A DNA stretch of 64,000 bases from Collimonas sp. OK607 (GTDB lineage Bacteria; Pseudomonadota; Gammaproteobacteria; Burkholderiales; Burkholderiaceae_D): NCBI RefSeq assembly GCF_900111995.1, contig NZ_FOKF01000021.1, positions 1-64,000 on the forward strand. Reading direction: 5' to 3'. The position numbers were made by a program, and so were the translations under genes. Position 1 is the first letter of the stretch. Every line of letters starts with the position of its first letter. A model generated the notes under the pieces. It ran no database searches. It had not been told where the DNA came from and was given only the letters and a program-made list of their open reading frames with translations. Shown one piece after another: positions 3,432 through 60,475 of this stretch.

Positions 3432-3485
3432 ATCAACTCCTGTTCGATGTGATGCGTAGAAAATTCGCTTAGCTTGCTTGCTACT

Positions 3486-6104: not shown

Positions 6105-6120
6105 GTGTTTCTCCGGTTTT

Positions 6121-6191
6121 GTAGGGTGGGCACGCTTTTGTGCCCACGCGGATATCAAAACAGCATGGGCACAAAAGCGTGCCCACCCTAC
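6121..6191. repeat. REPIN-like element, copy A
   Basis: Two REP units face each other: GTAGGGTGGGCACGCTTTTG on the left and its near-exact reverse complement ending at 6191. Each unit begins GTAG and folds on GTGGGCAC/GTGCCCAC. The element lies inside the sugar operon, between the dehydratase stop and the gguC start, so it is transcribed. It is the shortest of the five copies. Confidence 0.85.
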
Positions 6192-6199
6192 GATTGCAA

Positions 6200-44818: not shown

Positions 44819-44832
44819 TTGATGTGCATCAA
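44819..44832 (+). promoter_or_regulatory. FNR box upstream of the phasin gene
   Basis: TTGATGTGCATCAA is a perfect FNR consensus. A weak -10 candidate CACACT starts 21 bp downstream (44854-44859), giving transcription from about 44866 and a leader of about 70 nt to the phasin ATG. Confidence 0.75.
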
Positions 44833-44934: not shown

Positions 44935-45294
44935 ATGTTTCCGCTCTTGGAATCGATTTCGACAGTGATGAAGGCTGGCTACGAAGCGCAACTCGCAGTA
45001 ATGGCTCAGATCACCCGAACGGCAGTTGATGGCATGGAAAAGGCGATCAACCTGAACCTGAGTACCGCCAAGGCATCCCTGGATGCATCGTTAAATTCGT
45101 CGCAACAGATGATGTCGGCGACGACCCCGCAGGAATGGCTGCTGCTGAGATCGGCCCAGGTGCGGCCAACCGTTGATAGCGCCCTCCACTATGGTCATCA
45201 TATGGCCGATATTGTTTCTTGCACGCAGGCCGAGATCGCCGGGGTCGCAGCCGCGCATGTGGCCAACGCCAGCCGAAAAATCAAAGCGGCTTAA
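44935..45294 (+). CDS. Phasin-family protein
   Basis: A 119-residue, almost wholly helical protein of the phasin_2 type, with amphipathic heptad-like repeats and the QLAVMAQITRTAVDGMEKAI start. Phasins coat polyhydroxyalkanoate granules; small ones also occur in low-oxygen loci. An AAGGAG box lies 7 bases before the ATG, and a perfect FNR box is upstream. The alcohol dehydrogenase gene follows after 35 bp, probably in one operon. Confidence 0.8.
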   Translation: MFPLLESISTVMKAGYEAQLAVMAQITRTAVDGMEKAINLNLSTAKASLDASLNSSQQMMSATTPQEWLLLRSAQVRPTVDSALHYGHHMADIVSCTQAEIAGVAAAHVANASRKIKAA

Positions 45295-45329: not shown

Positions 45330-46385
45330 ATGACACGCCCATCCAGCATGAAAGCCCTTGTCTATCACGGACCGGGAAAAAAATCATGGGACTCGGTTCC
45401 CACGCCAAAGATTTCCAAGTCCACCGACGTCATCGTCAAGATGCTCAAAACCACGATTTGCGGCACCGACCTGCATATCCTTAAAGGTGACGTGCCGGAA
45501 GTGACCAGCGGCAGGATACTGGGGCACGAAGGTGTTGGCATCGTGGAAGAAACAGGTGAAACCGTCAGCAATTTCAAAAAGGGCGACCACGTACTCATAT
45601 CCTGCATCACCTCCTGCGGGAAATGCGAATACTGCAAGCGGCAAATGTATTCGCATTGCGAAGACGGCGGCTGGATACTAGGACATTTGATCGATGGCAC
45701 CCAGGCCGAATATGTGCGGATTCCGCAAGCCGACAACAGCCTGTATCCGATCCCGGCGGGAATGGATGAAGAAGCCTTGGTCATGCTTAGCGATATCTTG
45801 CCCACCGGTTTTGAGATCGGCGTCTTGTATGGCGCCGTTAAGCCGGGCGATACGGTTGCCATCGTCGGCGCGGGTCCGATCGGCATGGCCGCCCTGCTGA
45901 CTGCACAATTTTTTTCGCCGGGAAAAATCATCATGATCGATATCGACGAATCGCGCCTGGCGCTGGCTAAGAAATTCGGTGCGACGGAAGTGATCAACAG
46001 CGCCAAAGCCGATGCTGCAGCAATGATCATGGCGAGCACAAAGGATGGCGTGGACGTGGCGATCGAGGCCGTCGGCGTACCGCAGACGTTTGACATCTGC
46101 CAGCAGATCGTCCGTCCCGGCGGGCACATTGCCAATGTCGGGGTACACGGCAAAAGTGTCGATTTCCAAATTCAAAAACTATGGGCGCAGAACATCACGC
46201 TGACCACCGGCCTGGTCAATACCAATACCACTTCGATGCTGCTCAAGAATGTTGAATCTAAAAAACTGAAACCGGAGAATTTGATCACCCACCGTTTCAC
46301 ATTCGATCAGTTTCTGCATGCTTACGATGTCTTTTCCAACGCGGAGAAAGAACATGCGTTGAAGGTCATCATCAGCAATACGTGA
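45330..46385 (+). CDS. Zinc-dependent alcohol dehydrogenase
   Basis: A 351-residue medium-chain dehydrogenase. The catalytic zinc site is TTICGTDLH and GHEGVG, four structural-zinc cysteines lie in CGKCEYCKRQMYSHC, and the cofactor loop is GAGPIGMAA followed by the acidic DIDESR, favouring NAD. It resembles C-alcohol/secondary-alcohol dehydrogenases. Context (phasin upstream, FNR box) suggests NADH re-oxidation by alcohol formation when oxygen is short. AAGGAG precedes the ATG. Confidence 0.9.
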   Translation: MTRPSSMKALVYHGPGKKSWDSVPTPKISKSTDVIVKMLKTTICGTDLHILKGDVPEVTSGRILGHEGVGIVEETGETVSNFKKGDHVLISCITSCGKCEYCKRQMYSHCEDGGWILGHLIDGTQAEYVRIPQADNSLYPIPAGMDEEALVMLSDILPTGFEIGVLYGAVKPGDTVAIVGAGPIGMAALLTAQFFSPGKIIMIDIDESRLALAKKFGATEVINSAKADAAAMIMASTKDGVDVAIEAVGVPQTFDICQQIVRPGGHIANVGVHGKSVDFQIQKLWAQNITLTTGLVNTNTTSMLLKNVESKKLKPENLITHRFTFDQFLHAYDVFSNAEKEHALKVIISNT

Positions 46386-46489: not shown

Positions 46490-46795
46490 TCAGGACTTCT
46501 TGGTCCATGCGCTGCACCAGCCGTTGGCGGATACCTGTTTGCCAGCGAACAGGGGGCAGCCGCCAGCTGCATCACCCGGCTTACCCTGGTACAGCGAGCA
46601 ATTGCCGCAAAGCTGGCCAGTAGCGTACTTTGGAAATTTCACCTTGTCCGCTTTAGTAGCGTCGGCTTTGTAGCCTAGAGCTGCCGCCTGGGCATCACTC
46701 TCGGCGACCATGGCACCTTGGGCGAGGCTATGGCCCGATGCCAGTGCGGCGCTTCCCAAACCAAGTTGAACAATAAATTCGCGACGGCTGGTCAT
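46490..46795 (-). CDS. High-potential iron-sulfur protein (HiPIP)
   Basis: A 101-residue periplasmic electron carrier. A twin-arginine signal (SRREFIVQLGLGSAALA) is followed by a mature domain with the four [4Fe-4S] cysteines Cys63, Cys66, Cys80 and Cys94 in the HiPIP spacing (CGNC, GGC, GWC). The TAT signal fits export after cofactor insertion. It is the third gene behind the Cyc2-like protein and the c4-type cytochrome; GGAG lies 6 bases before the ATG. In acidophilic iron oxidisers a HiPIP (Iro) has been proposed in the Fe(II) electron path; a link to the respiratory chain is the general role. Confidence 0.93.
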   Translation of the reverse strand: MTSRREFIVQLGLGSAALASGHSLAQGAMVAESDAQAAALGYKADATKADKVKFPKYATGQLCGNCSLYQGKPGDAAGGCPLFAGKQVSANGWCSAWTKKS

Positions 46796-46858
46796 GATAT
46801 TTCTCCAAAATTTTTTAGAATCGGTGCGAAGCCAACAATGGCCAATCGCCAGAACACG

Positions 46859-47587
46859 TCATTGAATTGACGGCATAGCCTCCAGATAGGCAGCCACATT
46901 TTTCATGTTCTCTGGAGTGAGTTCGTGTGCAATCCCCTTCATCATGACGCCCTCCGGTCTTTCATCTGTCCGTTGAAAAACCATCAGTTGTTTGACGATA
47001 TAGTCGGAATGCTGGCCCGCCAAACGTGGGAACTGTTGAATGCCCTCGCCGTGCGCGCCGTGGCAGCCGGAGCAGGCAGGCGTGTTGTTTGCGGCAATGC
47101 CTTGTTCAAAAATTTTCTGGCCTTCCTTAAGTGAGTTTTCCTTGAACGATGCCTGATTTCCGGCTTTACCCGGGGGTGGCGATTGCGACGAGAAATAGGC
47201 AGCAAGTCCGTTGATCTGATCGTCGGATAACCTGGCGCTGATACCCCACATGTATTCGAATCCGGCTGGATCTGAACGGCCATGGCTTTTGAATGATTTG
47301 AGCTGTTCCACCAGATACGGTTGCGACTGCGCCGCCAGATTCGGGAAGTTGGGCGACACGGAAACACCCTGAACGCCATGGCAATTGGAGCAAACTTGCA
47401 GTGCGAGCGTCTTCGCGGCGACATTCGGATCGCCCAGAGAACGAGATCTTTCCGGCAGATTGCAAGCTGCAAGACCTGCCGCGACGATTAAGCCCAAAGA
47501 AAAATAAAGTCTCTTCCGTTTCACCTGCTCGAATCGGGTTTCCGTAGCCATGCGTTGTGCGGGTGTACCATCATCGTAGCTATTCAT
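46859..47587 (-). CDS. Diheme c4-type cytochrome lipoprotein
   Basis: A 242-residue protein with two similar heme domains: CSNCH at 66-70 and CSGCH at 172-176, with likely Met ligands near 113 and 217. The N-terminus has a hydrophobic helix ending in a lipobox (GLAAC, Cys42), so it is probably lipid-anchored facing the periplasm. The ATG at 47587 touches the stop of the Cyc2-like gene, and GGGGAG lies 8 bases upstream, inside that gene. Diheme c4 cytochromes (Cyc1 in Acidithiobacillus) accept electrons from outer-membrane cytochromes. Confidence 0.9.
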   Translation of the reverse strand: MNSYDDGTPAQRMATETRFEQVKRKRLYFSLGLIVAAGLAACNLPERSRSLGDPNVAAKTLALQVCSNCHGVQGVSVSPNFPNLAAQSQPYLVEQLKSFKSHGRSDPAGFEYMWGISARLSDDQINGLAAYFSSQSPPPGKAGNQASFKENSLKEGQKIFEQGIAANNTPACSGCHGAHGEGIQQFPRLAGQHSDYIVKQLMVFQRTDERPEGVMMKGIAHELTPENMKNVAAYLEAMPSIQ

Positions 47588-48922
47588 TTAGTACGCTCCC
47601 CACACATATAGAAACAACGTATTGTTGTCTTTGGCGTTGCGTCCGGAACCGTCGTAGTTGCTGGAGGCTCCGTGGAACTGGGTGTAGGCGTAGTATTGAA
47701 CGCCAATTCGAACGTACTGCACCGGCATCCAGAATATTTCTGGAACCCAGCCGCGTGTCCCCGGATTGGCTGCGACATCCTGATACAAAGTCGGATCCGA
47801 GCTTCCGGTGGTGCTGAAATAGCTCAGGCTGGTACCGTATTTCGCCCGATAGACGTAGCTGGCTTTCAGTCGCAACTGATTAAGCGTATTCGAGGCATTG
47901 CTGGCGACGCCTGTCACGTCGCCATTTGTGATGGTTTCCCTGATAAAGCTGACCTGCGCCGTCACGGTATGCGGATCCAGCAGATATTGATATTGCGCGT
48001 CTATCCCGCGGTCACGATAGCGCGTCGTCGGCCCGACAGGATTGGTGTTGTCGGGATAGATTTGCGCATTCATGGCAAGTGCCCCGATCATCGCACTATG
48101 CGGCCCCCAGTCGTGGCTGAGCGCCAGCCGTATGTAGGGATTGGTGCCCTTCAGATTCGTTTGATCCTGCGCTTTCGTGCCTTGGCTTAAGAACGACCAT
48201 ACGCCGTTGCTGGTCTGATATGCAGCCACCTCCGCGTATAGCGTCTTATTCCAGAAAGCATAGGCTGTCAGCCCGGCGACCTGGGTACCGAGTTGGCTAA
48301 TGATGGGGCTGGCGTCAGGCGCGGTGACGCCGAATTGGGTCGGGACATATTGAATCCATGCAGGAGCGGTGTTCCAGGGATCGGTAAGGGAAGGATTATT
48401 GTTCAGGCTGAATCCATAGATAAAGTCTTGGGTCGGGCCAATGAATCGATCGGCGTAGTGCAGGTCGAAATTATCGGAAGCCCACTTCCCTTGCCATTTT
48501 CCTGTGTCCTGATTTTGATTGTCGTAGTTGTTGTAGGTCCACTGTCCGAACACACCGACATTGTCAGTAACTTTGCCGGCCAGGAAGACGCTGCCGGTTT
48601 GAAACAGGGCGACCGCATCCTTGGCGAACGCCACGTCGCTATCCGGATTCTTACTCTTGGTGAAACTGGCTACCCCCATCACCGATAGCGGAATGGTGCG
48701 CGTACCGATCGTATAGCCGGTGAGCTTGAATAATCTTCCGTAAGCGGTCAGTTCAGGAAATTGGCCGCCGGCGTGACAGGCAACGCAATTTTGTCCGGTT
48801 TGCCTTGCGAAAACCGGTAACGCATCCGCCGCCAGTGGGCTCAACAAACCGTGAAGTACAAAAATAATGGCCAAGAACCGGGAATACCTCATTCCCCGAT
48901 ATAGGTATTTGAACGAATCCAT
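47588..48922 (-). CDS. Cyc2-like outer-membrane cytochrome-porin fusion
   Basis: A 444-residue protein with a signal peptide (to about Ala34), a short N-terminal monoheme segment (ALPVFARQTGQNCVACH, heme site 46-50, then FPELTAYGRLFKLTGY) and about 380 residues of alternating-hydrophobicity strands ending in YVWGAY, as in an outer-membrane barrel. This layout and the FAR..xC..CH..FP.L..(F/Y)G..FK..GY pattern are those of Cyc2-family fused cytochrome-porins, some of which oxidise Fe(II) at the cell surface. AAGGGG lies 9 bases before the ATG at 48922. An FNR box lies 158 bp upstream. The actual electron donor or acceptor is not known. Confidence 0.8.
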   Translation of the reverse strand: MDSFKYLYRGMRYSRFLAIIFVLHGLLSPLAADALPVFARQTGQNCVACHAGGQFPELTAYGRLFKLTGYTIGTRTIPLSVMGVASFTKSKNPDSDVAFAKDAVALFQTGSVFLAGKVTDNVGVFGQWTYNNYDNQNQDTGKWQGKWASDNFDLHYADRFIGPTQDFIYGFSLNNNPSLTDPWNTAPAWIQYVPTQFGVTAPDASPIISQLGTQVAGLTAYAFWNKTLYAEVAAYQTSNGVWSFLSQGTKAQDQTNLKGTNPYIRLALSHDWGPHSAMIGALAMNAQIYPDNTNPVGPTTRYRDRGIDAQYQYLLDPHTVTAQVSFIRETITNGDVTGVASNASNTLNQLRLKASYVYRAKYGTSLSYFSTTGSSDPTLYQDVAANPGTRGWVPEIFWMPVQYVRIGVQYYAYTQFHGASSNYDGSGRNAKDNNTLFLYVWGAY

Positions 48923-49079
48923 CCCAAGCCGCCCCTTTCATAGTTTTTTAAACTACTGTTGCAAAGCCCGAACCGCATTCGAATCAATTGACAGTAGGTA
49001 TTTTTTTAGCATTTGTCAATTAATTCACCCCTCTCCCAACGGCGTGCAATCAGAGTAACCGTGCGGGCAAGCCGGGTTC

Positions 49080-49093
49080 TTGATGTGAATCAA
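49080..49093 (-). promoter_or_regulatory. FNR box for the Cyc2-like operon
   Basis: TTGATGTGAATCAA matches the FNR consensus exactly. On the minus strand TACTCT (49052-49057) follows after 22 bp, predicting transcription from about 49045 with a leader of about 120 nt. The gap 48923-49269 (347 bp) contains this and the next box and no credible gene. Confidence 0.75.
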
Positions 49094-49176: not shown

Positions 49177-49269
49177 ATTTTTCTTGTTCATCATTGTTAT
49201 TCTTAGAATATGCAGCAGCGTCGCTGCCTGGTCTGCACCCGGCTCCCGTTCAATCTACTCTTGACTAAC

Positions 49270-50712
49270 ATGACCGATACCGTTCGCTCCACTTCCCACG
49301 AGAATTTGCTTCACGATGAATTGCGGGTGCTCCGCAACCTGACTTTCGATGAAATCTCCATCGGCGACAGCGCCGCCATGGAACGCACGCTGAGCACCGA
49401 AGATATCCAGCTGTTTGCCGTCATGTCTGGCGACGTCAATCCCCAGCACCTCGATCCCGAATTCGCCGCATCTACCCAGTTCCATGGAGTGATCGCCCAT
49501 GGCATGTGGGGAGCGGCGCTGATTTCGGCCGTGCTGGGCACGCGCCTGCCCGGGCCAGGCACGGTATATCTGGCCCAGACCTTGCGATTCTTGCATCCGG
49601 TGCGGGTGGGCGACACCTTGACCATCAGCGTCACGGTGACTGCGCGCGAGCCTGACAAGAAGCAACTCAGCCTGCGCTGCTCGTGTATCAACCAGGACGG
49701 CAAGATCGTGATCGAAGGCGATGCCGAGGTGATCGCACCCAACGAAAAGATCGTGTACCCCAGGATGACCTTACCGGAAGTCCGTATCAGTTCCGGTGAC
49801 AAGGTGCAACGGCTGCTTGAACACGTGCGCCCGCTCAGCGCCATTCGCGTCGCGGTGGTGCACCCTTGCGACGAACTGAGTTTGACGGCCGCGCTGGACG
49901 CGCGCCACGCACATTTGATCGAACCGTTGCTGGTGGCGCCACGCGCCAAACTCGAAGCGGTGGCCGCTGCTGCCGGCCTGGACCTGACCGGCATAGACAT
50001 TGAAGATGTCCCGCACAGCCACGCGGCGGCGGCACGCGCAGCCGAAATGGCAGGCAAAGGCGAAGTCGAAGCTTTGATGAAAGGCAGCCTGCATACCGAC
50101 GAATTGATGGCGGCTGTGCTGGCAACGTCCGCCGGACTGCGTACCAAGCGCCGCATCAGTCATTGCTATCTTATGCAAACCTCTGCCTATCCGCGCCCTT
50201 TCATTATCACCGATGCGGCCATCAATATTGAGCCAACGCTCGACGACAAAGTCGACATCGTGCGAAATGCGATCGACCTGGCGCATGTAATCGGCGTCGC
50301 CTGTCCACGCGTAGCGATCCTGGCGGCGGTGGAAACGGTCAACCCAGGCATGCGGGCAACGCTGGATGCCGCCGTACTGTGCAAAATGGCTGACCGCGGC
50401 CAGATTACCGGCGCCATACTCGATGGCCCCCTGGCTTTCGATAACGCGGTATCGGTCGCCGCCGCGCGCATCAAAGGCATCGTGTCGGAAGTCGCGGGGC
50501 GCGCCGACATCCTGGTAGTGCCGGATCTGGAAAGCGGCAACATGCTGGCCAAACAACTCGAGTACCTGAGCGGCGCCGCCAGCGCCGGCATCGTACTTGG
50601 CGCCAAAGTGCCGATCATCCTGACCAGCCGTGCCGATTCGCGCGAGACCCGCATCGCCTCTTGCGCCATCGCACTGATGCTGGCGCACCACTATCGCAAC
50701 CATCCCCAATGA
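49270..50712 (+). CDS. Fused MaoC-type hydratase and phosphate acetyl/butyryltransferase
   Basis: A 480-residue two-domain protein. Residues about 20-150 are a MaoC-like hotdog hydratase (FAVMSGDVNPQHLD, FHGVIAHGMWG); residues about 170-475 are a phosphate acyltransferase of the PTA_PTB type (ILDGPLAFDNAVS, VPDLESGNMLAKQL). The second domain exchanges acyl-CoA and acyl phosphate. The ackA start overlaps its stop (ATGA), so acyl-CoA would be turned into carboxylate plus ATP. The start at 49270 is set by the FNR-dependent promoter geometry; no clear ribosome-binding site is seen. Confidence 0.88.
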   Translation: MTDTVRSTSHENLLHDELRVLRNLTFDEISIGDSAAMERTLSTEDIQLFAVMSGDVNPQHLDPEFAASTQFHGVIAHGMWGAALISAVLGTRLPGPGTVYLAQTLRFLHPVRVGDTLTISVTVTAREPDKKQLSLRCSCINQDGKIVIEGDAEVIAPNEKIVYPRMTLPEVRISSGDKVQRLLEHVRPLSAIRVAVVHPCDELSLTAALDARHAHLIEPLLVAPRAKLEAVAAAAGLDLTGIDIEDVPHSHAAAARAAEMAGKGEVEALMKGSLHTDELMAAVLATSAGLRTKRRISHCYLMQTSAYPRPFIITDAAINIEPTLDDKVDIVRNAIDLAHVIGVACPRVAILAAVETVNPGMRATLDAAVLCKMADRGQITGAILDGPLAFDNAVSVAAARIKGIVSEVAGRADILVVPDLESGNMLAKQLEYLSGAASAGIVLGAKVPIILTSRADSRETRIASCAIALMLAHHYRNHPQ

Positions 50713-51950
50713 ATATGCCAGCTCAGTCCGTGACGCCAGCCGATAATAATGAACGATTCATCCTGGTGCTCAATTGCGGTTCGTCCAGCATCAAGTTCGC
50801 GCTTTTTGATATTACCCATGCTACCGGCGCTCCGCTGCCGCGGCAGGCTGAATGGAAAGGCAAAGTCGAGGGCATCGGCGGCACCAAGCCTGGTTATATC
50901 GAGACTGGCGGCGAATCTGAGCCACTGGCGCTGGACACGCAACAGCCGTATCACTCCGCGCTGATGCATATTCTCGAACGGGTTGGTGTGCATCTTGGCG
51001 CACGCCGCTTATGCGCAGTTGCGCATCGCGTGGTACACGGCGGCAGCAAGTATTCCGCACCGACCAGGATTGATGCGATAGTACTGGCGGATTTGAAGAA
51101 TTACATTCCGCTGGCTCCTTTGCATCAGCCGTTTGCGCTGGACACCATCGAAGTGCTGCTGGCCAGCCAGCCCGGCCTGCTTCAGGTCGCCTGTTTCGAT
51201 ACCGCTTTCCACCACACGCTGCCGCATGTCGAACAAATGCTGCCACTGCCATACGCGCTGTGGGAGCGCGGCTTGCGCCGCTATGGATTTCATGGCCTGT
51301 CCTATGAATACCTGTCGATGGCGCTGGATGAGCGTTTCGGCGCCGCGGCGCACGGCCGCGTCATTGCGGCCCACCTGGGTAGCGGAGCCAGCCTGTGCGC
51401 AATGCGAGATCTGCGCAGCGTCGCCACCACCATGGGATTTTCCGCACTGGATGGGTTGATGATGGGCACCCGTTGCGGCGCACTCGACCCGGGCGCGGTA
51501 ATTTACCTGATGGAAATCGAGAAATTAAGCCTGGAACAAGTAGCGCACCTGCTGTACCACGAGTCAGGCTTGCTTGGGGTCTCCGGCGTTTCCGCCGATC
51601 CGCCGATCCTGTTCGCGCAAGAGCAACGGGACGATGCCGTCGGTGACCAGGTGCGCGCCGCACTCGCCTTGTACGAGCGTCGTATCGTCCGCGAAATCGG
51701 TGCATTGGCCGCCGTGTTGGGCGGCCTCGATTTGCTGGTGTTTACGGCCGGCGTCGGTGAACACAGTGCGGAGATTCGCAGCCGCGTTTGCCGTGACCTG
51801 GAGTTCCTTGGCGTACACCTGGAAGACGCAGCCAATCAGCGCAACGCACCATTGATATCCGCACACGGCAGCAGGGTCGCAGTCGCAGTCGAGGCCACCA
51901 ACGAAGAATGGATCGCAGCCCGGCACGCGCTAGTCATGCTCGACTCTTAG
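50709..51950 (+). CDS. ackA: Acetate/propionate kinase
   Basis: A 413-residue acetokinase with the phosphate-binding NCGSSSIKFALF, the catalytic HRVVHGG, RYGFHGLSYEYL, AHLGSGAS and TMGFSALDGLMMGTRCG. It makes ATP from acyl phosphate and ADP. The ATG overlaps the upstream stop codon by four bases, indicating translational coupling with the acyltransferase fusion. The pair gives substrate-level phosphorylation under oxygen limitation. The 3' end overlaps the convergent ligase gene by 4 bp. Confidence 0.95.
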   Translation: MNMPAQSVTPADNNERFILVLNCGSSSIKFALFDITHATGAPLPRQAEWKGKVEGIGGTKPGYIETGGESEPLALDTQQPYHSALMHILERVGVHLGARRLCAVAHRVVHGGSKYSAPTRIDAIVLADLKNYIPLAPLHQPFALDTIEVLLASQPGLLQVACFDTAFHHTLPHVEQMLPLPYALWERGLRRYGFHGLSYEYLSMALDERFGAAAHGRVIAAHLGSGASLCAMRDLRSVATTMGFSALDGLMMGTRCGALDPGAVIYLMEIEKLSLEQVAHLLYHESGLLGVSGVSADPPILFAQEQRDDAVGDQVRAALALYERRIVREIGALAAVLGGLDLLVFTAGVGEHSAEIRSRVCRDLEFLGVHLEDAANQRNAPLISAHGSRVAVAVEATNEEWIAARHALVMLDS

Positions 51951-53830
51951 TTGACGACTGCCTCTACGGCCTCGTCTATTATCTGGGCTGGCGTACGCTG
52001 CGCGTAAACATCGTCAATTTCAGCCTGAAAATGCGCAAGCAACGCGTTGCGTTTGAGCTTCAGCGTCGGCGTCATCAGCCCATTCAGCAACGACCATGGT
52101 TCCAGCGTGACCCGTACAACGCGCGGCACCGCATAGCTGGGGAAGTGCTTGCTTGCTGCTTGAATTCTCTGCAAAACGGCAGTCTGTATTGACGCAGAAT
52201 CCGGATTGACGCTATCGCCGGCATCGAGCTTAAGTTGCTGCAGCAGTGTGTCCAGGCCGCTACGGCCAAGTACAACAAAAGCGGCGATGAACGGGCGGTT
52301 GTCGCCAATCACGAATGCTTGCTCGAATAGCGGATCGGCCGTGATCGCCAACTCCAGATCCGCCGGCGCAATTTTCTCGCCGGTTGAAGTGACGATAATT
52401 TCCTTGATCCTGCCGATGATGCGGATGCGTCCACCTTCCATAGCTGCCTGATCGCCGGTACGCAACCAGCCGTCGACGGTCATTGCGTTGGCAGTCTCGT
52501 CCGGGCGTTTCCAATATCCTGCCATGACACCGCCGCCGCGCACCTGCAACTCGCTGTTCTCGCCGATACGTACCCTGACGCCTTCCAGCGGCTTACCAAC
52601 CGTAGCCGGCCAATTGTCGGACGGCGTATTGCAGGATATCACCGGCGATGTTTCTGTCATGCCGTATCCCTGCACCAATGGCAAACCCAGCGCCAGAAAG
52701 CATTCCGCTACCGCCTGCGACAAAGGTGCACCGCCGCATACCGCGACACGCAAGCGCCCGCCGAACTGCGCCAGCACCTTGCGCGCCACCAGCAATTGCA
52801 AGATAGGGCACAACAACGAATCCAGCCAATCCGGGGAGGCGCCGTTGCAAGGTAACTGCTGGCTTCGGCAAAAACGCCGCCAGCCGATCGTTTGCGCCAA
52901 CGCAAAAAGACGTCGCGTCAAATAGCCGGATTCGGCAAGAATCCCCTGCAATTTCACGTGAGACCGTTCATAGATTCTCGGCACCGAAACCAATACCGTC
53001 GGCCGGATCGTCGCCAGGTCTTCCGGAATCTGCGCCACTGACCGCGCGTAAGCGACGCAACTGCCGGCTGCAACCGGCAGGTAATATCCTACGGTGCGCT
53101 CGAAAGTGTGCGATAGCGGCAGGAACGACAGGAACACATCAGACGAGCGCACCTCGACCCGCGCCATCACCACCTGGATATTCGACAGTACATTGTTGTG
53201 GGTCAGCATGACCCCCTTAGGTTTGCCGGTAGTTCCCGAGGTATAGACGATCGCCGCCAGGGCGCCGCCCGACACCGGCGGCCTGCGTGTATTGTTGGGC
53301 AGTGCGCCGCTGGCCAGCCAGGTCGCCAAAGCAACCACCACGCCATGAACAGGAGCCGACGCGTAGTGATTGTCGAAATTTCCATCGCCCACCACCAAAA
53401 CCAGCTTCAAAAAAGGCATGGTTTCGCCGACCGCTGCAATCGCTTCCCATTGCGCACGGGTCGACAGCACCAGCATCGAGGCCTCGCAATCCTTGATGAT
53501 GTAGGCGATGCTGGCCGGATTGTCGAGCGCGTGCATCGGCACAGGAACCAGGCCCAGCGCCAGGCTCGCCTGATCGATGCAGACGGCATCCAGACCATTC
53601 GGCAGCAATACAGCCACTCGTGCCTCCGAGGGCAGACGTGACGCCGTCAGCGCGCTGCGCCAGATCCTTACGCGCTCGCCGATTTGCGCCCACGTATGTG
53701 AGTGCCAGCGCCCTGACTCTGAATTGAAGTGACGATACGCCTCGTTCTCTGGAGTCTGTCCGACCCGCCAGTCAAACAAGTCTCCAAGCGTTGCCATTTT
53801 CTTCAAATTAGCTGCAATAGCGGTTTTCAT
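51947..53830 (-). CDS. Long-chain acyl-CoA synthetase (AMP-forming)
   Basis: A 627-residue adenylating enzyme. The P-loop is YTSGTTGKPKG, followed by LSFLPLSHTFER, QGYGMTETSPVI and the hinge motif GWLRTGDQA; the C-terminal lysine lies in TGEKIAPADLE. Length and motifs fit the FAA1/FadD15 long-chain branch. The start at 53830 has AGGA 8 bases upstream. A shared FNR box with a TAGACT -10 on this strand (53869-53874) predicts low-oxygen expression, perhaps recycling fatty acids for lipid or polyhydroxyalkanoate use. Confidence 0.9.
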   Translation of the reverse strand: MKTAIAANLKKMATLGDLFDWRVGQTPENEAYRHFNSESGRWHSHTWAQIGERVRIWRSALTASRLPSEARVAVLLPNGLDAVCIDQASLALGLVPVPMHALDNPASIAYIIKDCEASMLVLSTRAQWEAIAAVGETMPFLKLVLVVGDGNFDNHYASAPVHGVVVALATWLASGALPNNTRRPPVSGGALAAIVYTSGTTGKPKGVMLTHNNVLSNIQVVMARVEVRSSDVFLSFLPLSHTFERTVGYYLPVAAGSCVAYARSVAQIPEDLATIRPTVLVSVPRIYERSHVKLQGILAESGYLTRRLFALAQTIGWRRFCRSQQLPCNGASPDWLDSLLCPILQLLVARKVLAQFGGRLRVAVCGGAPLSQAVAECFLALGLPLVQGYGMTETSPVISCNTPSDNWPATVGKPLEGVRVRIGENSELQVRGGGVMAGYWKRPDETANAMTVDGWLRTGDQAAMEGGRIRIIGRIKEIIVTSTGEKIAPADLELAITADPLFEQAFVIGDNRPFIAAFVVLGRSGLDTLLQQLKLDAGDSVNPDSASIQTAVLQRIQAASKHFPSYAVPRVVRVTLEPWSLLNGLMTPTLKLKRNALLAHFQAEIDDVYAQRTPAQIIDEAVEAVVN

Positions 53831-53896
53831 GATGTTTCCTGATTTTTTTGTTGCTGCGCCATGAAACAAGTCTAATTGCAACTGTTTCCGGCTGAG

Positions 53897-53910
53897 TTGA
53901 TATGGATCAA
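53897..53910. promoter_or_regulatory. Shared divergent FNR box
   Basis: TTGATATGGATCAA is a perfect FNR consensus. TATGCT (53932-53937) lies 21 bp away on the plus side and TAGACT (53869-53874) 22 bp away on the minus side, so one dimer could drive both the DksA-like gene and the acyl-CoA synthetase. Confidence 0.8.
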
Positions 53911-53966
53911 ATTTTTCCACCGAGCCATTGTTATGCTGAAGGCAGTCGTTCCTGGAGGATCGCGCC

Positions 53967-54341
53967 ATGCACGGACATTCGTTATTTCCTGACGTAGCAA
54001 AAATGATCTCTTTCAACTTGGCAAGACAACTCGAAACCCCGTTGCAGCGGCGACGCAAATATATAGTCGCGACAATCCGCTCGCAACGGTGCCAGGCCGG
54101 CGCGATGACAGGTTTGCTCAGCGCGGCCGAAATTGCTTTGCTCCGCAACAAGTCGGCAGAGCCAAACAAAATCCAGGCCGCGCTACAACGTATCAAAGCG
54201 CGCACATGCGGCAACTGCCTTGCATGCGGGGCAGTTATCACGCCACAGCGGCTACGCCTGCATCCGACTGCAGAACGATGCCAGTCATGCCAGGCTGCGC
54301 TGGAAAGCAGTCAACGACAGGGCTTGGAGCCTAACTTCTGA
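53967..54341 (+). CDS. Small DksA/TraR-type C4 zinc-finger protein
   Basis: A 124-residue basic protein. The C-terminal half holds Cys84-x2-Cys87-x17-Cys105-x2-Cys108, the exact spacing of the DksA/TraR zinc finger, preceded by a helical segment. DksA-type proteins enter the RNA polymerase secondary channel and retune promoters in starvation. The N-terminal coiled coil is short and I do not see the DxxDxA tip motif, so the mode of action may differ. GGAGG lies 8 bases before the ATG and a class II FNR promoter lies upstream. Confidence 0.75.
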   Translation: MHGHSLFPDVAKMISFNLARQLETPLQRRRKYIVATIRSQRCQAGAMTGLLSAAEIALLRNKSAEPNKIQAALQRIKARTCGNCLACGAVITPQRLRLHPTAERCQSCQAALESSQRQGLEPNF

Positions 54342-54441: not shown

Positions 54442-55290
54442 ATGGAATATCGAACCATACTTGTGCACGTGGATGAATCCAGGCGCGCTCATGAACAAAT
54501 CAGGATCGCCGCTGTGCTTGCGCAAAAATGCAACGCGCATCTGATCGGCGCCGCAGCTACCGGCGTTGCGCCGCAATTCTTCATGCCGGGGGTAATCGGA
54601 GACAGCAACCTGGCTCTTCTCGGCTCCGCGCTAAGCGATCTGCGCGAGCATGCTGAAAGTCTGTTAACTGCATTTGAATCCTCTGCCTGGAAGATGGACG
54701 TCAAGTCCTTCGAAAAACGCCTGATCGAGGACGACGCCGGCACGGGCCTGGTTTTGCAGGCACGCTATAGCGACCTGGTGGTGATCGGCCAGGTCAATCC
54801 GACTGACTACTCGCCGCTGCTACGAGCCGACTTTCAGGAATATGTGCTGATGAATTCAGGCAGGCCGGTACTGATCATCCCCTATGCAGGTCATTTCCCC
54901 CAGGTCGGCAAAAGAGTGTTGCTTGCCTGGGACGGCAGCATGGAGGCAACGCGTGCTGTCAGCGCATCGATTCCGTTGCTGCAGCAGGCTGATCTGGTCC
55001 GGGTACTGGTGCTTGACACCGGCAGGCCGGCTGACGCCCACGGCGAACAACCGGGAGCCGATATCGCCATTTACCTGGCGCGCCACGGTATCAAACTCGA
55101 GGTATCGGAACAAAAGATCCCGGCCGATATAGATGTCGGCAACGCGCTCTTGTCGCACGCTGCCGATTTCGGCGCCGACCTGATCGTCATGGGCGGCTAT
55201 GGCCACACCCGCTTCCGCGAAATCTTGCTGGGAGGAGTGACGCGCACTGTCCTGGCTTCTATGACGGTGCCGGTGTTGATGTTCCATTGA
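54442..55290 (+). CDS. Universal stress protein, two UspA domains
   Basis: A 282-residue tandem UspA protein. The first domain (1-145) begins TILVHVDESR; the second (about 155-282) carries the ATP-binding motif GGYGHTRFREILLGGVTRTVL with the G-2x-G-9x-G-S/T pattern. Tandem USPs are markers of low-oxygen persistence loci. CGGAGGG lies 7-8 bases before the ATG. No FNR-spaced palindrome is upstream; it could be read through from the DksA-like gene 100 bp before. Confidence 0.92.
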   Translation: MEYRTILVHVDESRRAHEQIRIAAVLAQKCNAHLIGAAATGVAPQFFMPGVIGDSNLALLGSALSDLREHAESLLTAFESSAWKMDVKSFEKRLIEDDAGTGLVLQARYSDLVVIGQVNPTDYSPLLRADFQEYVLMNSGRPVLIIPYAGHFPQVGKRVLLAWDGSMEATRAVSASIPLLQQADLVRVLVLDTGRPADAHGEQPGADIAIYLARHGIKLEVSEQKIPADIDVGNALLSHAADFGADLIVMGGYGHTRFREILLGGVTRTVLASMTVPVLMFH

Positions 55291-55349: not shown

Positions 55350-56000
55350 CTAGGCAATCACCATCTTGTCGACGACCCGCGCCACGCCCGGCGCCGCCGC
55401 TGCCGCCTGTAATGCAGCGTAGCGTTCCGACCATGAGCGCACCGGGCCGGTAAGGGTCACCTGGTCGCCGTTGACTACCACCGTAATGCGTTGTGTTTCC
55501 ATGTGAGCGCGCCGCTGCAGCGCGGCCTCGATCTTGACCTTGACGTCCGCCGGCAACACGGCTGGCTTGACCACGATCTGATTGCTGATTCCGGTAACGC
55601 CCATCAAGTTACGCGTGACATTTTCCGCAGCCAGGCGCTGATAATCACGTTCCAGTTCACCGCTCAGCGTCACCCATCCGTCCTCAACCATGACTTTGAC
55701 CTGGTCCTTGGGGACCAGCACGTTCCATTCCAATGCCATTTCAGCGGCGCGCGCGATATCGGCATCGTTGCGCTCGCTTGGACCAGGTAACCATACATCG
55801 ATTTCCACTGCGATTCCCTTGACGCCGGCAACGCGCAACGTCGCGCGTTCAGCGGCATACTTCTCGGCATGACTATCTACATGCCCGGTCAGCGTCACCA
55901 CACCATCTTTCACCTCGACCCCGATCTCGATATCCTTGACAGACGGATCCCACTCCAGCTCATCCGTGACTTCCTGCTTTAACTGACGATCGCTTTTCAT
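55350..56000 (-). CDS. BON-domain protein, three BON repeats
   Basis: A 216-residue protein with three consecutive BON domains (about 5-70, 77-142 and 148-215), each with the V-x-D-G-x-V-T-L-x-G pattern. BON domains bind membranes or phospholipid surfaces (OsmY, RbmA-type proteins), but there is no signal peptide here, so a cytoplasmic or membrane-associated role is likely. AGAGAAG precedes the ATG. A perfect FNR box with a TATGAT -10 lies upstream. Confidence 0.88.
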   Translation of the reverse strand: MKSDRQLKQEVTDELEWDPSVKDIEIGVEVKDGVVTLTGHVDSHAEKYAAERATLRVAGVKGIAVEIDVWLPGPSERNDADIARAAEMALEWNVLVPKDQVKVMVEDGWVTLSGELERDYQRLAAENVTRNLMGVTGISNQIVVKPAVLPADVKVKIEAALQRRAHMETQRITVVVNGDQVTLTGPVRSWSERYAALQAAAAAPGVARVVDKMVIA

Positions 56001-56072: not shown

Positions 56073-56086
56073 TTGATGCACATCAA
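56073..56086 (-). promoter_or_regulatory. FNR box for the BON-domain gene
   Basis: TTGATGCACATCAA matches the FNR consensus exactly. On the minus strand TATGAT (56046-56051) follows after 21 bp. The same site lies 168 bp before the fnr-like start, so autoregulation is possible, but the plus side has no well-placed -10. Confidence 0.8.
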
Positions 56087-56254: not shown

Positions 56255-57061
56255 ATGAATACGCCGTTTGCCAAAGTGGCATCGCCACTTTTGAACATTC
56301 CGGTATTGAAAGCCAGCTGCGCGGGTTGCAGCTTGCACCAGCTATGTTTGCCGATGGGCCTGGACAGTGCCGACATGACGCGCCTCGACCAGATCATCGG
56401 ACGCGGACAGCGCATCTTGCGCGACCAGCGTTTGTACCGGATGGGAGATCCGTTTAAGAACCTCTACGCGATTCGTTTCGGGCACTTCAAAACTTGCCAT
56501 ATAAATAATGGCGGTGAACAGCAGATCACCGGTTTCCAGATGGCCGGTGAATTGCTTGGCATGGATGCCATCAGTTCCGATCTTCACCACTGCGATGCCG
56601 TGGCGCTGGAAGACAGCGAGGTCTGCGAAATTCCTTTTGCGCGACTGGAAGAATTATTCAGCCATATCCCGACCCTGCTGCATCATTTCCATCGGATCAT
56701 GAGCCAGGAAATCACGCGCGATCAAAACATCATGCTGCTGCTCGGAAATATGCGCGCCGAGCAGCGATTTGCGGCTTTCCTGGTCAATCTTTCTTCCCGC
56801 TACATGGCGCGCGGCTATTCCTCGACCAGCTTCCAGTTGCGTATGTCGCGCGAGGACATCGGCAATTACCTTGGACTAACCATCGAAAGTATCAGCCGGC
56901 TCTTGTCCCACTTCAGGGTGCAAGGCTGGATTGCGGTCGACAAGCGGGATTTGCAGATCCTCGACCTGACGAAATTGAAAGAACTGGCGCTTGGCGGCGA
57001 GTCGGGGCGGATGACAAAAAAAGATTGCAAACCTGTCGCCTCTCCTGCCACCAAAACCTGA
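56255..57061 (+). CDS. fnr: FNR-family oxygen-sensing transcription regulator
   Basis: A 268-residue Crp/Fnr protein. Cys22, Cys25 and Cys31 at the N-terminus and Cys124 (in EVCEIPF) match the four [4Fe-4S] ligands of Escherichia coli FNR, so it should sense oxygen directly. The helix-turn-helix (about 199-217, SREDIGNYLGLTIESISRLL) has Glu211, Ser214 and Arg215 in the ExxSR arrangement that reads TTGAT-N4-ATCAA. Six such sites lie within 12 kb upstream of the gene, so it is the likely master regulator of the island. It ends 9 bp from the convergent Acs-GNAT gene. Confidence 0.93.
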   Translation: MNTPFAKVASPLLNIPVLKASCAGCSLHQLCLPMGLDSADMTRLDQIIGRGQRILRDQRLYRMGDPFKNLYAIRFGHFKTCHINNGGEQQITGFQMAGELLGMDAISSDLHHCDAVALEDSEVCEIPFARLEELFSHIPTLLHHFHRIMSQEITRDQNIMLLLGNMRAEQRFAAFLVNLSSRYMARGYSSTSFQLRMSREDIGNYLGLTIESISRLLSHFRVQGWIAVDKRDLQILDLTKLKELALGGESGRMTKKDCKPVASPATKT

Positions 57062-57070
57062 ACCAGATCG

Positions 57071-59518
57071 TCAGCGTTGCTGCGACGACCGCAAATCCAG
57101 ATGCAGCCACATGGTGCCATCGCGCTCCAGCGGCTTTACATCAAAGCCGAGCTTTCTTACCAAATGCAGGATGCGCGTATTGTGCGGCAAAGCCTCGCCG
57201 ATGATCTCAGCGGTGCCATGGCGGCGGCAATACGCAATCAATTTCGCCATTAGCAGATGGCCCAGTCCCAGCCCTTTCAAATCGGAACGCACTATCACCG
57301 AAAATTCCGCCTGGATGTTGTCCGGATCCGCGACTACCCTGGCCACGCCCAGCGTTTCGGCGCTGCCGTCCGGCTTGTTCCTGGTCGCTATGAAAGCCAT
57401 CTCGCGGTCGTAATCGATCTGCGTAAAACGCGCCAATTGCGATGGCTGTAATGCACGCACGCCGACAAACATCCTGTAGCGCACGTCTTCAGGATCGAGC
57501 GCGTTGAAAAACGCAATATGAGCCTGGCCGTCTTCCGGTTTGATCGGCCGCAGCAACAGCGTCGAGCCCTGCCAGGAGATGGTTTCTTCCAATTCTTCCG
57601 GATAGGGGCAGATCGCAAAACGCTGCAGACCGTCGCCAATGGCGGCCGGCTGCAATCGCCCGTGCGCCTGCAGCCCTACCATGTGTTTTCCATCTGGCAG
57701 CGTGAACTGGATGTCAAGTTCGACCAACTCCGGAACATCGGTCAGCAAATGAGACAGCTTGAGCAGGTGCCGGCAAATCTCGTCGATTTCCGGTTCTGGT
57801 TGCTGCGACGTGCTGTCGGCCACCTCGGCTATGCCGGTCGCATGCAATACCAAATCGCGCGCCAGCACCATGTTTAACGGCGGCAAACCTGCCGCTATCA
57901 CAGGCAAGTCAAATCTCCCGCCCTGTCCGAACACAATGGCCGGACCGAATATGGGATCGGTAACAATACCGATTTTCAATACCGGCGTCACCATCTGCGT
58001 GTCGTCTGCAAGATGTACATCATTCACCGGCAAGCCATATGCTGCCAGCAGTGCGCCGGTGTCAGCGGCCGCCAGCACTAGCCGGCCACCGGCCAAGGCA
58101 GCCGCGACAATCTTGCGCGCAGCCGGCCGATCTGCGACAAGGTCGGGTGATATCGTCGGCGGCACCTGCATCAGCAGATGTTGATTGCGTCGAAAATCGG
58201 CCATCTGCATGAAACCGCATACGGCAGCTTCCGGCGTAGCGTAGGTGGCGATGCCTGACTCCGCGAAAATACGCCGTGCGGGCGCCAACGCGGCGCCGCC
58301 CAGCCAGCAAACGAGGATATTACGTGCACCCTGCCTGGCCAGCGGAATAATGGCATCGGCAATATCGACACATGATGCGCTTGCACTCGGCGCGTGAATG
58401 ACAAGCAAGGCGTCCGCCCCGGAGTCTGCCGATACGGCCTCCAACACCTGCCGGTACAGTGACGCCGATGCATTGGCCGGCAGTGCGACCGGAGCGGAAC
58501 ACGCCGCATTCTCTGGCAGGAGCTGGTTGAGCTTGCATAGGGTCTCGTCCGACAACGTCGCTGACTTTCCTCCGCCACGTAGCAAGGCGTCGCAAGCCAT
58601 CAGCCCGGGGCCGCGGCCATTGCCGACAATTGTCAGCCGGCCATTGCCAAACGGACGGACTTGCGACAAGGTCTCCACAGCACTGAGCAAATCCTCTGTA
58701 GAGTACACCCGCAACATGCCCGCCCGGCGGATCGCCGCATCCAGCACTGCATCCGACCTGCCCGACATAGACTCCGCTACGAGGTCGCCGCCGCAGGGGC
58801 CGGTCTTGAGTATCAGCGTCGGTTTGTTGCGTGCGGCTGCGCGTGCCGCCGACATGAATTTACGGGCATGCGGAATATCTTCGATGCATAACAATATTGC
58901 CCGCGTGTCGCTGTCGCCGGCCAGGTAATCGAGCATGTCGCCGACATCGACATCGACGCCATCACCCAGCGTAATCACTTTGGAAAAACCGATACCTTGC
59001 GACCGTGCCCAATCAAGCATGCCCGCTGCCAGCATACCGGATTGGGCAAGCAACGCAATTTGTCCCTGCAACGCCCCGGTTGTGGCAAGACTGGCGTTCA
59101 GCCCAATCTTCGGAACCAATATGCCAGCCGAGCCGGGGCCGAGAATGCGCAGCAAATGGGGGCGCGCCGTTTCCAGCACTGACGGTTGCAATTTGTCGCC
59201 GGCACCGGCTTCTTCGCCTAGCACGATCGCCGCTTTGGTACCCAACCTGGCTAGCTGGCCGATGATCCTGGGTATGGTTGACGATGGTGTGCAAATGATC
59301 GCCAGTTCTGGCACGACCGGCAATTCAGCGAGATCGCGATAAGTCTTGAGGCCCTCCAGCAAGGTGTATTTCGGATTGACCGGAAAGATGTTCCCTTTAA
59401 AGCCACCTTGCACCAAATTCCGCAGCCCATACGTTCCCATGTGCTGCGTCTTTTCAGATGCACCGATGACCGCTATCGATCGCGGTGCGAAAAAAAATTG
59501 CAGGTTTCTTGCACTCAT
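57071..59518 (-). CDS. Acetyl-CoA synthetase-like (NDP-forming) protein fused to GNAT acetyltransferase, degenerate ligase
   Basis: An 815-residue protein. Residues 1-450 are the CoA-binding and succinyl-CoA-synthetase-like domains (IAVIGASEKTQHMG at 15-28). A remnant ATP-grasp domain (about 465-630) jumps from PVLKI at 512-516 to GIVTDPIFGP, lacking the usual HKSDVGG segment between. Residues about 638-800 are a GNAT acetyltransferase (GLGLGHLLMAKLI acetyl-CoA site). The layout is that of Pat/YfiQ (PatZ) protein lysine acetyltransferases. Without the ATP-grasp core it probably does not ligate acetate but acetylates proteins. It is the last gene of the minus-strand operon. Confidence 0.85.
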   Translation of the reverse strand: MSARNLQFFFAPRSIAVIGASEKTQHMGTYGLRNLVQGGFKGNIFPVNPKYTLLEGLKTYRDLAELPVVPELAIICTPSSTIPRIIGQLARLGTKAAIVLGEEAGAGDKLQPSVLETARPHLLRILGPGSAGILVPKIGLNASLATTGALQGQIALLAQSGMLAAGMLDWARSQGIGFSKVITLGDGVDVDVGDMLDYLAGDSDTRAILLCIEDIPHARKFMSAARAAARNKPTLILKTGPCGGDLVAESMSGRSDAVLDAAIRRAGMLRVYSTEDLLSAVETLSQVRPFGNGRLTIVGNGRGPGLMACDALLRGGGKSATLSDETLCKLNQLLPENAACSAPVALPANASASLYRQVLEAVSADSGADALLVIHAPSASASCVDIADAIIPLARQGARNILVCWLGGAALAPARRIFAESGIATYATPEAAVCGFMQMADFRRNQHLLMQVPPTISPDLVADRPAARKIVAAALAGGRLVLAAADTGALLAAYGLPVNDVHLADDTQMVTPVLKIGIVTDPIFGPAIVFGQGGRFDLPVIAAGLPPLNMVLARDLVLHATGIAEVADSTSQQPEPEIDEICRHLLKLSHLLTDVPELVELDIQFTLPDGKHMVGLQAHGRLQPAAIGDGLQRFAICPYPEELEETISWQGSTLLLRPIKPEDGQAHIAFFNALDPEDVRYRMFVGVRALQPSQLARFTQIDYDREMAFIATRNKPDGSAETLGVARVVADPDNIQAEFSVIVRSDLKGLGLGHLLMAKLIAYCRRHGTAEIIGEALPHNTRILHLVRKLGFDVKPLERDGTMWLHLDLRSSQQR

Positions 59519-59575
59519 CGCGCATTCTCAAAATTATCCGTCGACATACTGGTTGGCGCACTAGCCTGCACAACG

Positions 59576-60475
59576 CTAGCTGCGCGATCTCAGTAAATCG
59601 GTGACAGCGACGGCGGTCGGTTTTGCCATGTCGATCCGATTACTCGAATGGAAAATAGTGTTACAGCTGACGATACGATCGACACCAGCCACCTGCAGCG
59701 CGATATAGCCATCCCCGGCAAACAAAGGATGCACGGCGATACATACCGGGGGCGCCATGCCAGCTGCATTGATCTGCTTGACGGCAGCGACCATCGTGCG
59801 GGCGGTGGAAACAATATCGTCCATCAATACCGGTGTCCTTCCTTCCCAGTCATCCACATGCGGAATCGAGACTTCTACCTCGCGATCGCCACGCCGTTTC
59901 TTTTGCAATACCGTATATGGACACCCAACCACGTCAGCCACGGCTGCGACCCATTGTTCGCTTTCAGCATCGGGGCCGATAATGACGGGAAGCTGCACAT
60001 TTCCGGTAATCCATTTTGCCAGTTCAGGGGCCGCATGCACCACCCGACTCGGGATCGAGTAGATCTCAGCCAGCTCGCGATACCGGTGCAGATGCGGATC
60101 GACCGTCACCAGCCAGTCGCAGCAACTGGAAATCAAGCGCGCAAAATGCGCTGAAGTTACCCCTTCCTCGTCCATGAATCGTGCATCCTGCCGCATGTAA
60201 GGCAAGTAAGGAATGACGAAACCGATGCTACGCGCTCCCAGTTCGCGGGCAACGCAGCCGGCAAGATACAGCTCCATGATTTTTCTATCCGGCCGCTCCA
60301 GTGCACAGGCCAGCACTACGTCACGCCCCGCGACCGAAGTCATGAAGCGGGGGCAAGACTCGCCATCGGGAAAATGATGCATCTCCATGACACCGTTCTC
60401 GGCTGGTAAATAACTGCGCAACTGCGAGGCAAAGCCGTCGTTGCCCGGCATGGTGAAAAATACGGGTTTCATCAA
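59576..60475 (-). CDS. prs: Ribose-phosphate pyrophosphokinase-like protein
   Basis: A 299-residue PRPP synthetase homologue with FPDGE, the PYLPYMRQDARF loop, VTVDPHLHRY and the PRPP-binding loop DDIVSTARTM, where housekeeping enzymes have DTGGT. It is shorter and more divergent than a typical 310-320-residue Prs, so it is probably a second, specialised copy. It overlaps the phosphorylase gene by 4 bp, which suggests a joint role in handling ribose phosphates. Confidence 0.88.
   Translation of the reverse strand: MMKPVFFTMPGNDGFASQLRSYLPAENGVMEMHHFPDGESCPRFMTSVAGRDVVLACALERPDRKIMELYLAGCVARELGARSIGFVIPYLPYMRQDARFMDEEGVTSAHFARLISSCCDWLVTVDPHLHRYRELAEIYSIPSRVVHAAPELAKWITGNVQLPVIIGPDAESEQWVAAVADVVGCPYTVLQKKRRGDREVEVSIPHVDDWEGRTPVLMDDIVSTARTMVAAVKQINAAGMAPPVCIAVHPLFAGDGYIALQVAGVDRIVSCNTIFHSSNRIDMAKPTAVAVTDLLRSRS

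Follow-up and report, generated by a model that had tools for sequence, protein, structure and literature searches.

A cyc2, cytochrome c4 and HiPIP gene cluster beside FNR boxes in Collimonas sp. OK607: a putative low-oxygen electron-uptake operon

RESULTS

Genes for a Cyc2-type porin, a diheme lipoprotein and a HiPIP

We analysed a stretch of 64,000 nucleotides from Collimonas sp. OK607 (contig NZ_FOKF01000021.1, positions 1 to 64,000; hereafter the window), focusing on three adjacent minus-strand genes that a preliminary description, made from the sequence alone, had read as an outer-membrane electron-transfer module. All three open reading frames (ORFs) were found at the coordinates given in that description. 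With the two FNR boxes upstream of them, the features are as follows.

46490 to 46795, minus strand: HiPIP with a twin-arginine start, 101 residues, the sole HIPIP match of the genome
46859 to 47587, minus strand: diheme cytochrome c4 lipoprotein (Cyc1-like), 242 residues, adjoining cyc2
47588 to 48922, minus strand: cyc2, a fused monohaem cytochrome-porin, 444 residues, a single CVACH, 16 predicted strands
49080 to 49093, no strand: perfect FNR box, some 158 bp upstream of the cyc2 start codon
49163 to 49176, no strand: second perfect FNR box, spaced as a class-II site of the divergent pta gene (TATTCT, 4/6)

In the 444-residue protein an N-terminal helix precedes ALPVFARQTGQNCVACHAGGQFPEL, and a long stretch without further haem sites follows. 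The protein carries ALPVFARQT, GQN, CVACH and PEL. The published Cyc2 signature is AXPXFAR[Q/K][T/Y] with CXXCH and PXL in a porin of at least 365 residues (Keffer et al. 2021, PMC8406198). The protein has the required length and one CXXCH. PXL occurs as PEL, five residues past CVACH, where the published spacing is four, and a helix at residues 4–26 precedes the motif and would be the signal peptide. A loose expression (F[AS]R[QKR], then CXXCH) matched 48 of the 54 related named loci; two of the six misses have truncated ends and four are variants such as AVPAYARQT. In an alignment of 48 proteins, the haem Cys and His and several signature residues were invariant, and the remainder of the signature was nearly so.

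An AlphaFold2 model computed from the alignment of 48 relatives had a mean pLDDT of 82.9 and a pTM of 0.81. We observed exactly 16 strands, of at least three residues each, beyond the haem segment, which is the barrel that the preliminary description had expected behind an N-terminal haem. Residues 31–60 were modelled with block pLDDT values of 57–75. The top folds in the PDB were the 16-strand porins OmpC and OmpF (TM 0.47 by query), while sequence searches of Pfam, NCBIfam and the PDB gave no meaningful match. The nearest named relatives, at 97% identity, come from Collimonas sp. OK307 and OK242. The protein also groups with Cyc2 in the tree described below, which holds motif-bearing proteins only and so does not by itself exclude unrelated porins. 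Taken together, the published signature, the predicted barrel and the tree support the assignment to the Cyc2 family made in the preliminary description. A viral origin of the gene was considered as well and is unsupported; it was rejected on finding zero relatives in viral_contigs.

The stop codon of cyc2 runs to 47588 and the c4 gene has its ATG at 47587, so that the two genes abut directly, as had been described. The c4 protein has a predicted lipobox (LAAC) and two CXXCH motifs, and matched Pfam Cytochrom_C in two stretches (74.4 bits). Its closest solved relative is 1h1o (128.9 bits over residues 63–237; the next c4 scored 105.6 bits), which we take to be Cyc1 of Acidithiobacillus ferrooxidans, the c4 cytochrome of the rus operon. 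This agrees with the earlier comparison with Cyc1.

The HiPIP gene begins 63 nt past the c4 gene. Its product matched Pfam HIPIP with 96 bits (cut-off 22) over positions 2–66 of 66, with all four Cys present, and its best PDB match was 1hlq (93.8 bits), presumably the HiPIP of Rhodoferax fermentans. Export by the twin-arginine (Tat) route, which the preliminary description had proposed, is indicated by MTSRREFI, which reads as a twin-arginine motif, but the NCBIfam Tat signal model stayed just under its cut-off (15.3 against 16.7 bits). The Iro-type identity suggested at the same time was rejected, as the NCBIfam model NF041615 gave 11.9 bits against a cut-off of 100.

FNR boxes at the locus and the surrounding island

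The preliminary description had placed the operon behind one perfect FNR box. Perfect boxes (TTGAT-N4-ATCAA) are present, and two of them occupy the interval that separates cyc2 from the divergent pta. Following the spacing rule of class-II FNR promoters, the 49080 box would put the transcription start near 49045 on the minus strand, and the 49163 box is better placed for pta than for cyc2. The window holds five perfect boxes against 0.08 expected from shuffles, and all five lie within 44.8–56.1 kb. The other three boxes and the genes around them are listed below.

44819 to 44832, no strand: perfect FNR box, before the phasin gene
44935 to 45294, plus strand: phasin, a polyhydroxybutyrate (PHB) granule protein
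45330 to 46385, plus strand: zinc alcohol dehydrogenase
49267 to 50712, plus strand: bifunctional hydratase/phosphate acetyltransferase (pta), divergent from cyc2, likely start at 49267
50661 to 51950, plus strand: acetate kinase (ackA)
51947 to 54241: AMP-ligase-like gene, named by eye
53897 to 53910, no strand: perfect FNR box, close to the AMP-ligase-like gene start
54442 to 55290, plus strand: universal stress protein (Usp)
55350 to 56000, minus strand: BON-domain protein
56073 to 56086, no strand: perfect FNR box, upstream of fnr
56255 to 57061, plus strand: FNR-type oxygen regulator (NCBIfam Fnr, 258 bits, cut-off 228)

Just past the window, on the same contig, lie two Usp genes, then a second fnr (about 5 kb beyond the window) and a cbb3 oxidase cluster (ccoN, ccoO, ccoP, ccoG and ccoH). 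This cluster has its own FNR box; its cco genes are 21–27 kb from cyc2 and are followed by genes for a copper-type P-ATPase and a DsbD_2 membrane protein, and by hemN. The five boxes, the excess of boxes across the clade (see below) and the linkage to cbb3 are consistent with the low-oxygen control proposed earlier. For comparison we considered Herbaspirillum, presumably a member of the same family as Collimonas. There Fnr acts directly on the bc1, Usp and phasin genes, and the cbb3 genes are among those most induced at low aeration (PMC5934665).

Beside fnr, at 57071–63413, genes for an acyl-CoA synthetase/GNAT fusion, a ribose-phosphate diphosphokinase, a thymidine phosphorylase and a beta-CASP nuclease stand in a row, as if they belonged to the same low-oxygen island.

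FNR boxes upstream of cyc2 in relatives

We counted boxes over the tree rows with at least 200 bases upstream (L, G and f numbers are our labels for loci, genomes and families; L162 and L163 belong to none of the four groups). In the window's cyc2 clade, a perfect box was found upstream in 12 of 47 rows (0.05 expected in shuffles) and a box within one mismatch in 18 of 47 (1.15 expected). The other rows outside Cluster 1 gave 4/25 (0.03 expected) and 6/25 (0.52 expected), respectively, and the Cluster-1-like rows gave 0/25 for perfect boxes and for those within one mismatch (0.02 and 0.67 expected). We also compared cyc2 with the other genes of the same loci by Fisher tests that ignore relatedness and use 44 cyc2 regions without deduplication: perfect boxes occurred in 9/44 cyc2 upstream regions versus 6/228 others, and boxes within one mismatch in 20/44 versus 14/228. 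The excess of FNR boxes upstream of cyc2 is clear, despite a majority of members that lack one.

Partner genes of cyc2

The preliminary description had named co-occurrence of the three genes in other genomes as a check. Of the 54 named loci, 44 have a c4 gene directly behind cyc2; among the other ten, two stop at a contig end and eight have no c4 gene. The order cyc2-c4-HiPIP was found, among the loci with c4, in Collimonas only. A lipobox-like Cys is present in 41 of the 44 c4 proteins next to cyc2, and a lipid-anchored c4 is therefore the rule among these loci. In four loci (L017, L019, L020 and L071), a HiPIP gene (Pfam HIPIP 26–37 bits, cut-off 22) directly follows a more distant cyc2 in place of c4, and thus both c4 and HiPIP recur beside cyc2. 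On a Caballeronia plasmid, a HiPIP gene stands just upstream of a cyc2. HiPIP genes were found in 15 of the 22 cyc2-bearing genomes of the family and in 30 of the 123 others, as tallied from lists without correction for relatedness. Neighbour clustering covered the loci other than L040, L046, L047, L049, L053, L065 and L071.

These neighbours bear on the suggestion that the 444-residue protein is an outer-membrane porin whose haem domain has a structural or stress-related role, and the operon a generic low-oxygen cytochrome set that takes electrons from no external donor. The barrel is strongly divergent, with profile matches to one large family covering mostly the first ~115 positions, and HiPIP and c4 could serve ordinary respiration too. 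However, haem-binding and signature residues that are invariant or nearly so in all the aligned proteins, and a c4 partner kept in so many loci, make this explanation improbable.

Two loci of uncultured Ferrovum have a different arrangement. At L081 (128–3275), cyc2, a 126-aa ORF and a photosynthetic reaction-centre cytochrome gene (CytoC_RC, 403.5 bits) are in a row, and L084 has the same order by sequence. The 126-aa ORF of both loci is HiPIP-like by eye (twin-arginine start, clustered Cys) and gave no Pfam match. This gene order could possibly be a layout for light-driven iron oxidation.

Distribution and tree

Relatives of cyc2 were found in 22 of the 145 genomes sampled from the family, with fragments and more distant types counted, in 70 of 300 in the order sample and in 89 of 398 in the phylum sample, and these samples overlap. 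A single family, f79, accounts for 65 of the 89.

Entry into the tree required the motif expression near the ORF start and an ORF of at least 340 residues, and removal of sequences more than 85% identical reduced 122 rows to 101. L039, L045, L047, L057, L063, L065, L070 and L074 of the 54 named loci, the plasmid loci L086/L087 and 24 of the loci L089–L170 (some of them non-cyc2) stayed outside, and the tree has no named reference Cyc2 of Mariprofundus, Leptospirillum or the A. ferrooxidans rus operon. This quick tree has one deep split (support 100) with 26 rows, from f79, f99, f24 and f37, on one side. We took f79 and f99 (another class) as Zetaproteobacteria-like and f24 and f37 (the same order) as Gallionella-like, and from this we infer the Cluster-1 label. 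With the families taken as Cluster 1, profile matches extend mostly over the N-terminal ~115 positions. The window's Cyc2 lies on the opposite side, within an Oxalobacteraceae clade, and uncultured Ferrovum (L081) is on this same side. Since Cyc2 of the Ferrovaceae has been reported as cluster 2 (PMC13390463), the window's protein likely has its home in cluster 2; cluster 3 has no named reference in the tree.

A possibly movable cassette in Collimonas

The cassette has two kinds of site within Collimonas: in the window strain and its relatives it lies at the pta-ackA promoter, and in OK412 at the cbb3 cluster. In OK412 (L032, 6001–13332), cyc2-c4, a DsbD_2-family membrane protein gene, a copper-type P-ATPase gene and ccoN (741.6 bits, cut-off 583) lie in this order on the same strand, and HiPIP as a third gene is not present at this locus. 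Collimonas G805 and G808 (L195, L196, L197 and L198) have the pta-ackA island with one and two perfect FNR boxes before pta, and the divergent partner there is a hemN-like gene (236.9 and 324.0 bits, cut-off 324.95) in place of cyc2. Because the same island promoter drives a hemN-like gene in these two genomes, the boxes at the window site were probably not made for cyc2 and were there before it. Two FNR-linked sites within one genus weaken the idea that the boxes evolved for cyc2 and strengthen the idea of a cassette placed under low-oxygen control. We therefore propose, tentatively and at somewhat less than even odds, that cyc2 with a lipid-anchored c4, HiPIP being optional, is a movable respiratory cassette of heterotrophic Betaproteobacteria, put into FNR-controlled promoters or beside cbb3 genes and giving low-oxygen lithoheterotrophy on Fe(II).

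DISCUSSION

The reading that we prefer, with a probability of roughly 55%, is that the three genes form an operon for Cyc2-type electron uptake at the outer membrane, which is induced at low oxygen and feeds a cbb3 oxidase in a heterotroph; the donor, most likely Fe(II), and the direction of flow are inferred. Upon a fall in oxygen, FNR would activate the cyc2-c4-HiPIP operon. Fe(II) in solution, or a comparable small reductant, would enter the Cyc2 pore and be oxidised at the periplasm-side haem, and the electron would pass to the c4 lipoprotein anchored beneath Cyc2 and from there, presumably through soluble HiPIP or else directly, to the cbb3 oxidase. The cell would remain heterotrophic, with Fe(II) as an additional electron donor while oxygen is low enough for abiotic oxidation to be slow. 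Several reports are in line with these steps. One biochemically tested Cyc2 per cluster oxidises Fe(II), and the Cyc2 structure suggests that dissolved Fe2+ enters the pore (PMC8406198); cyc2, cyc1 and cbb3 are part of the Fe(II) pathway proposed for Zetaproteobacteria (PMC7029218); and HiPIP and c4 cytochromes are proposed electron carriers in Ferrovum (PMC10879576).

An auxiliary donor at low oxygen is the likely use because the genome has neither a RuBisCO over the NCBIfam cut-off nor NarG. Autotrophy was rejected since the sole RuBisCO_large match passes the Pfam family cut-off but fits OiaX best (444.9 bits, cut-off 700), with 239.8 bits for RuBisCO III (cut-off 497). Nitrate as acceptor through NarG was rejected too: nothing exceeded the cut-off (best 38.7 bits), Nap and denitrification genes lying outside this search. 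The RuBisCO-family protein itself is encoded elsewhere in the genome (L122, 6692–7933); its best match, below cut-off, is OiaX of the isoapionate pathway.

Several observations weigh against this interpretation. At the locus, the −10 match of cyc2 is weak (3/6), and the boxes probably predate the gene. Even at one mismatch, 29 of the 47 clade members have no upstream FNR box, and the 14 of 228 upstream regions of other genes with a box within one mismatch show that such boxes are not confined to cyc2. The three-gene order was found, among loci with c4, only in Collimonas, eight related loci with room for a c4 gene, including the uncultured Ferrovum pair L081/L084, are without one, and 7 of the 22 cyc2-bearing genomes of the family gave no HiPIP match. 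No tested substrate for a Cyc2 of the window's clade turned up, and Keffer et al. caution that cluster 2/3 homologues may have other roles (PMC8406198). Finally, the available part of a transcriptome study of Collimonas pratensis with biotite names several cytochromes and mentions HiPIP zero times; the strain was not examined for the operon (PMC12542777).

An alternative is that the same Cyc2 conduit works in the same direction with another donor, such as reduced humics or phenolics, or Fe(II) that is bound to organic chelators and comes from weathering or fungal tissue. The conduit might also remove Fe(II) for protection against radical chemistry and not to gain energy. The genome looks heterotrophic, its RuBisCO_large match being best with the OiaX decarboxylase and below the NCBIfam RuBisCO cut-offs, Collimonas is a mineral-weathering and fungus-feeding genus (PMC12542777, PMC4690342), and the role of many cluster 2/3 homologues is described as unsettled (PMC8406198). 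Against this stand the oxidation of Fe(II) by the tested Cyc2 of each cluster (PMC8406198) and the c4 partner being nearest to 1h1o. We consider such a donor or role doubtful, though with an appreciable chance of being correct.

The preliminary description had also mentioned electron release to an outside acceptor, in which electrons from fermentation or PHB oxidation would leave the cell once oxygen is gone. The trio does adjoin pta-ackA, phasin and Usp genes in an island that resembles one for low-oxygen persistence. Carriers with potentials of 208 and 351 mV, however, are ill suited to the reduction of Fe(III) or humics at neutral pH. These are the published values for Cyc2 PV-1 and for Rhodoferax fermentans HiPIP, respectively (PMC10879576 for HiPIP). 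The linkage to the cbb3 oxidase, moreover, indicates oxygen as the sink. Because of the carrier potentials and this linkage, export is the less likely direction, and we would give it little chance.

Among known systems, the closest in components is the Ferrovum Fe(II) chain (cluster 2 Cyc2, HiPIP-41 and the c4 cytochromes CytC-18/CytC-78; PMC10879576, PMC13390463), which is betaproteobacterial, has the same three component types and shares the tree side. Ferrovum, however, is an acidophilic autotroph, whereas Collimonas is a soil heterotroph with a single gene cluster, FNR boxes and a c4 lipoprotein, and the two uncultured Ferrovum loci have the HiPIP-like 126-aa ORF and no c4 beside cyc2. The rus operon of A. 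ferrooxidans (cyc2-cyc1-cup-cox-rus; PMC10654088 for the order cyc2-cyc1) likewise has a diheme c4 gene directly after cyc2, and the window's c4 has its best match, 1h1o, on that side. Unlike the rus operon, the named Collimonas neighbours include no rusticyanin or aa3 genes; a HiPIP that is not Iro-type is found instead, and cbb3 is in the region. With the Cluster 1 pathway of Zetaproteobacteria and Gallionellaceae (cyc2, cyc1, bc1 and cbb3) the window shares the signature haem segment and the proposed route to cbb3. It differs in lying across the fully supported split, in profile matches restricted mostly to the N-terminal segment, and in its FNR boxes, which all 25 counted Cluster-1-like rows lack. 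The lxa locus of Burkholderia cenocepacia resembles the island in gene content: it has Usp, BON protein and cytochrome c genes and is induced at low oxygen, and Cyc2 is not reported there in the available part of the source (PMC6127331).

Cyc2 outside the known iron oxidisers has been reported before (PMC8406198), and an iron-oxidation potential has been described for Noviherbaspirillum (PMC11784278). A literature search, with most subscription papers outside it, found no description in this family of cyc2 under FNR control, of a c4 partner with a lipid anchor or of linkage to cbb3. The FNR-type regulation, the cbb3 linkage and the lipid-anchored c4 partner of cyc2 appear to be new. If our interpretation is true, low-oxygen iron oxidation would extend beyond the specialists to common soil heterotrophs, including a mineral-weathering genus, as a regulated sideline; the gene content suggests that an ordinary heterotroph may use iron as a side fuel. 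Because of the FNR link, aerobic screens would miss such a Cyc2 activity. In iron oxidisers the function of cyc2 does not lend itself easily to genetic tests (PMC8406198), and since Collimonas is culturable, its role outside them might be approachable by gene removal.

More distant cyc2-like genes were also observed. The HiPIP-linked gene of L019 (genome G083, of the same genus; HiPIP 33.7 bits) is a second cyc2 type with 41% identity. Uliginosibacterium gangwonense (L082) has two cyc2-like genes, at 2663–4090 and 5893–7380, less than 2 kb apart. Plasmids of acidophiles, namely L087 of A. ferrooxidans YQ-N3 and plasmids of Acidiphilium, carry a cyc2-like gene that is annotated as a hypothetical protein, is ~32% identical to the window's protein and has a variant signature (AIPAFAAQT on L087); the A. 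ferrooxidans gene is followed by a c-type cytochrome gene.

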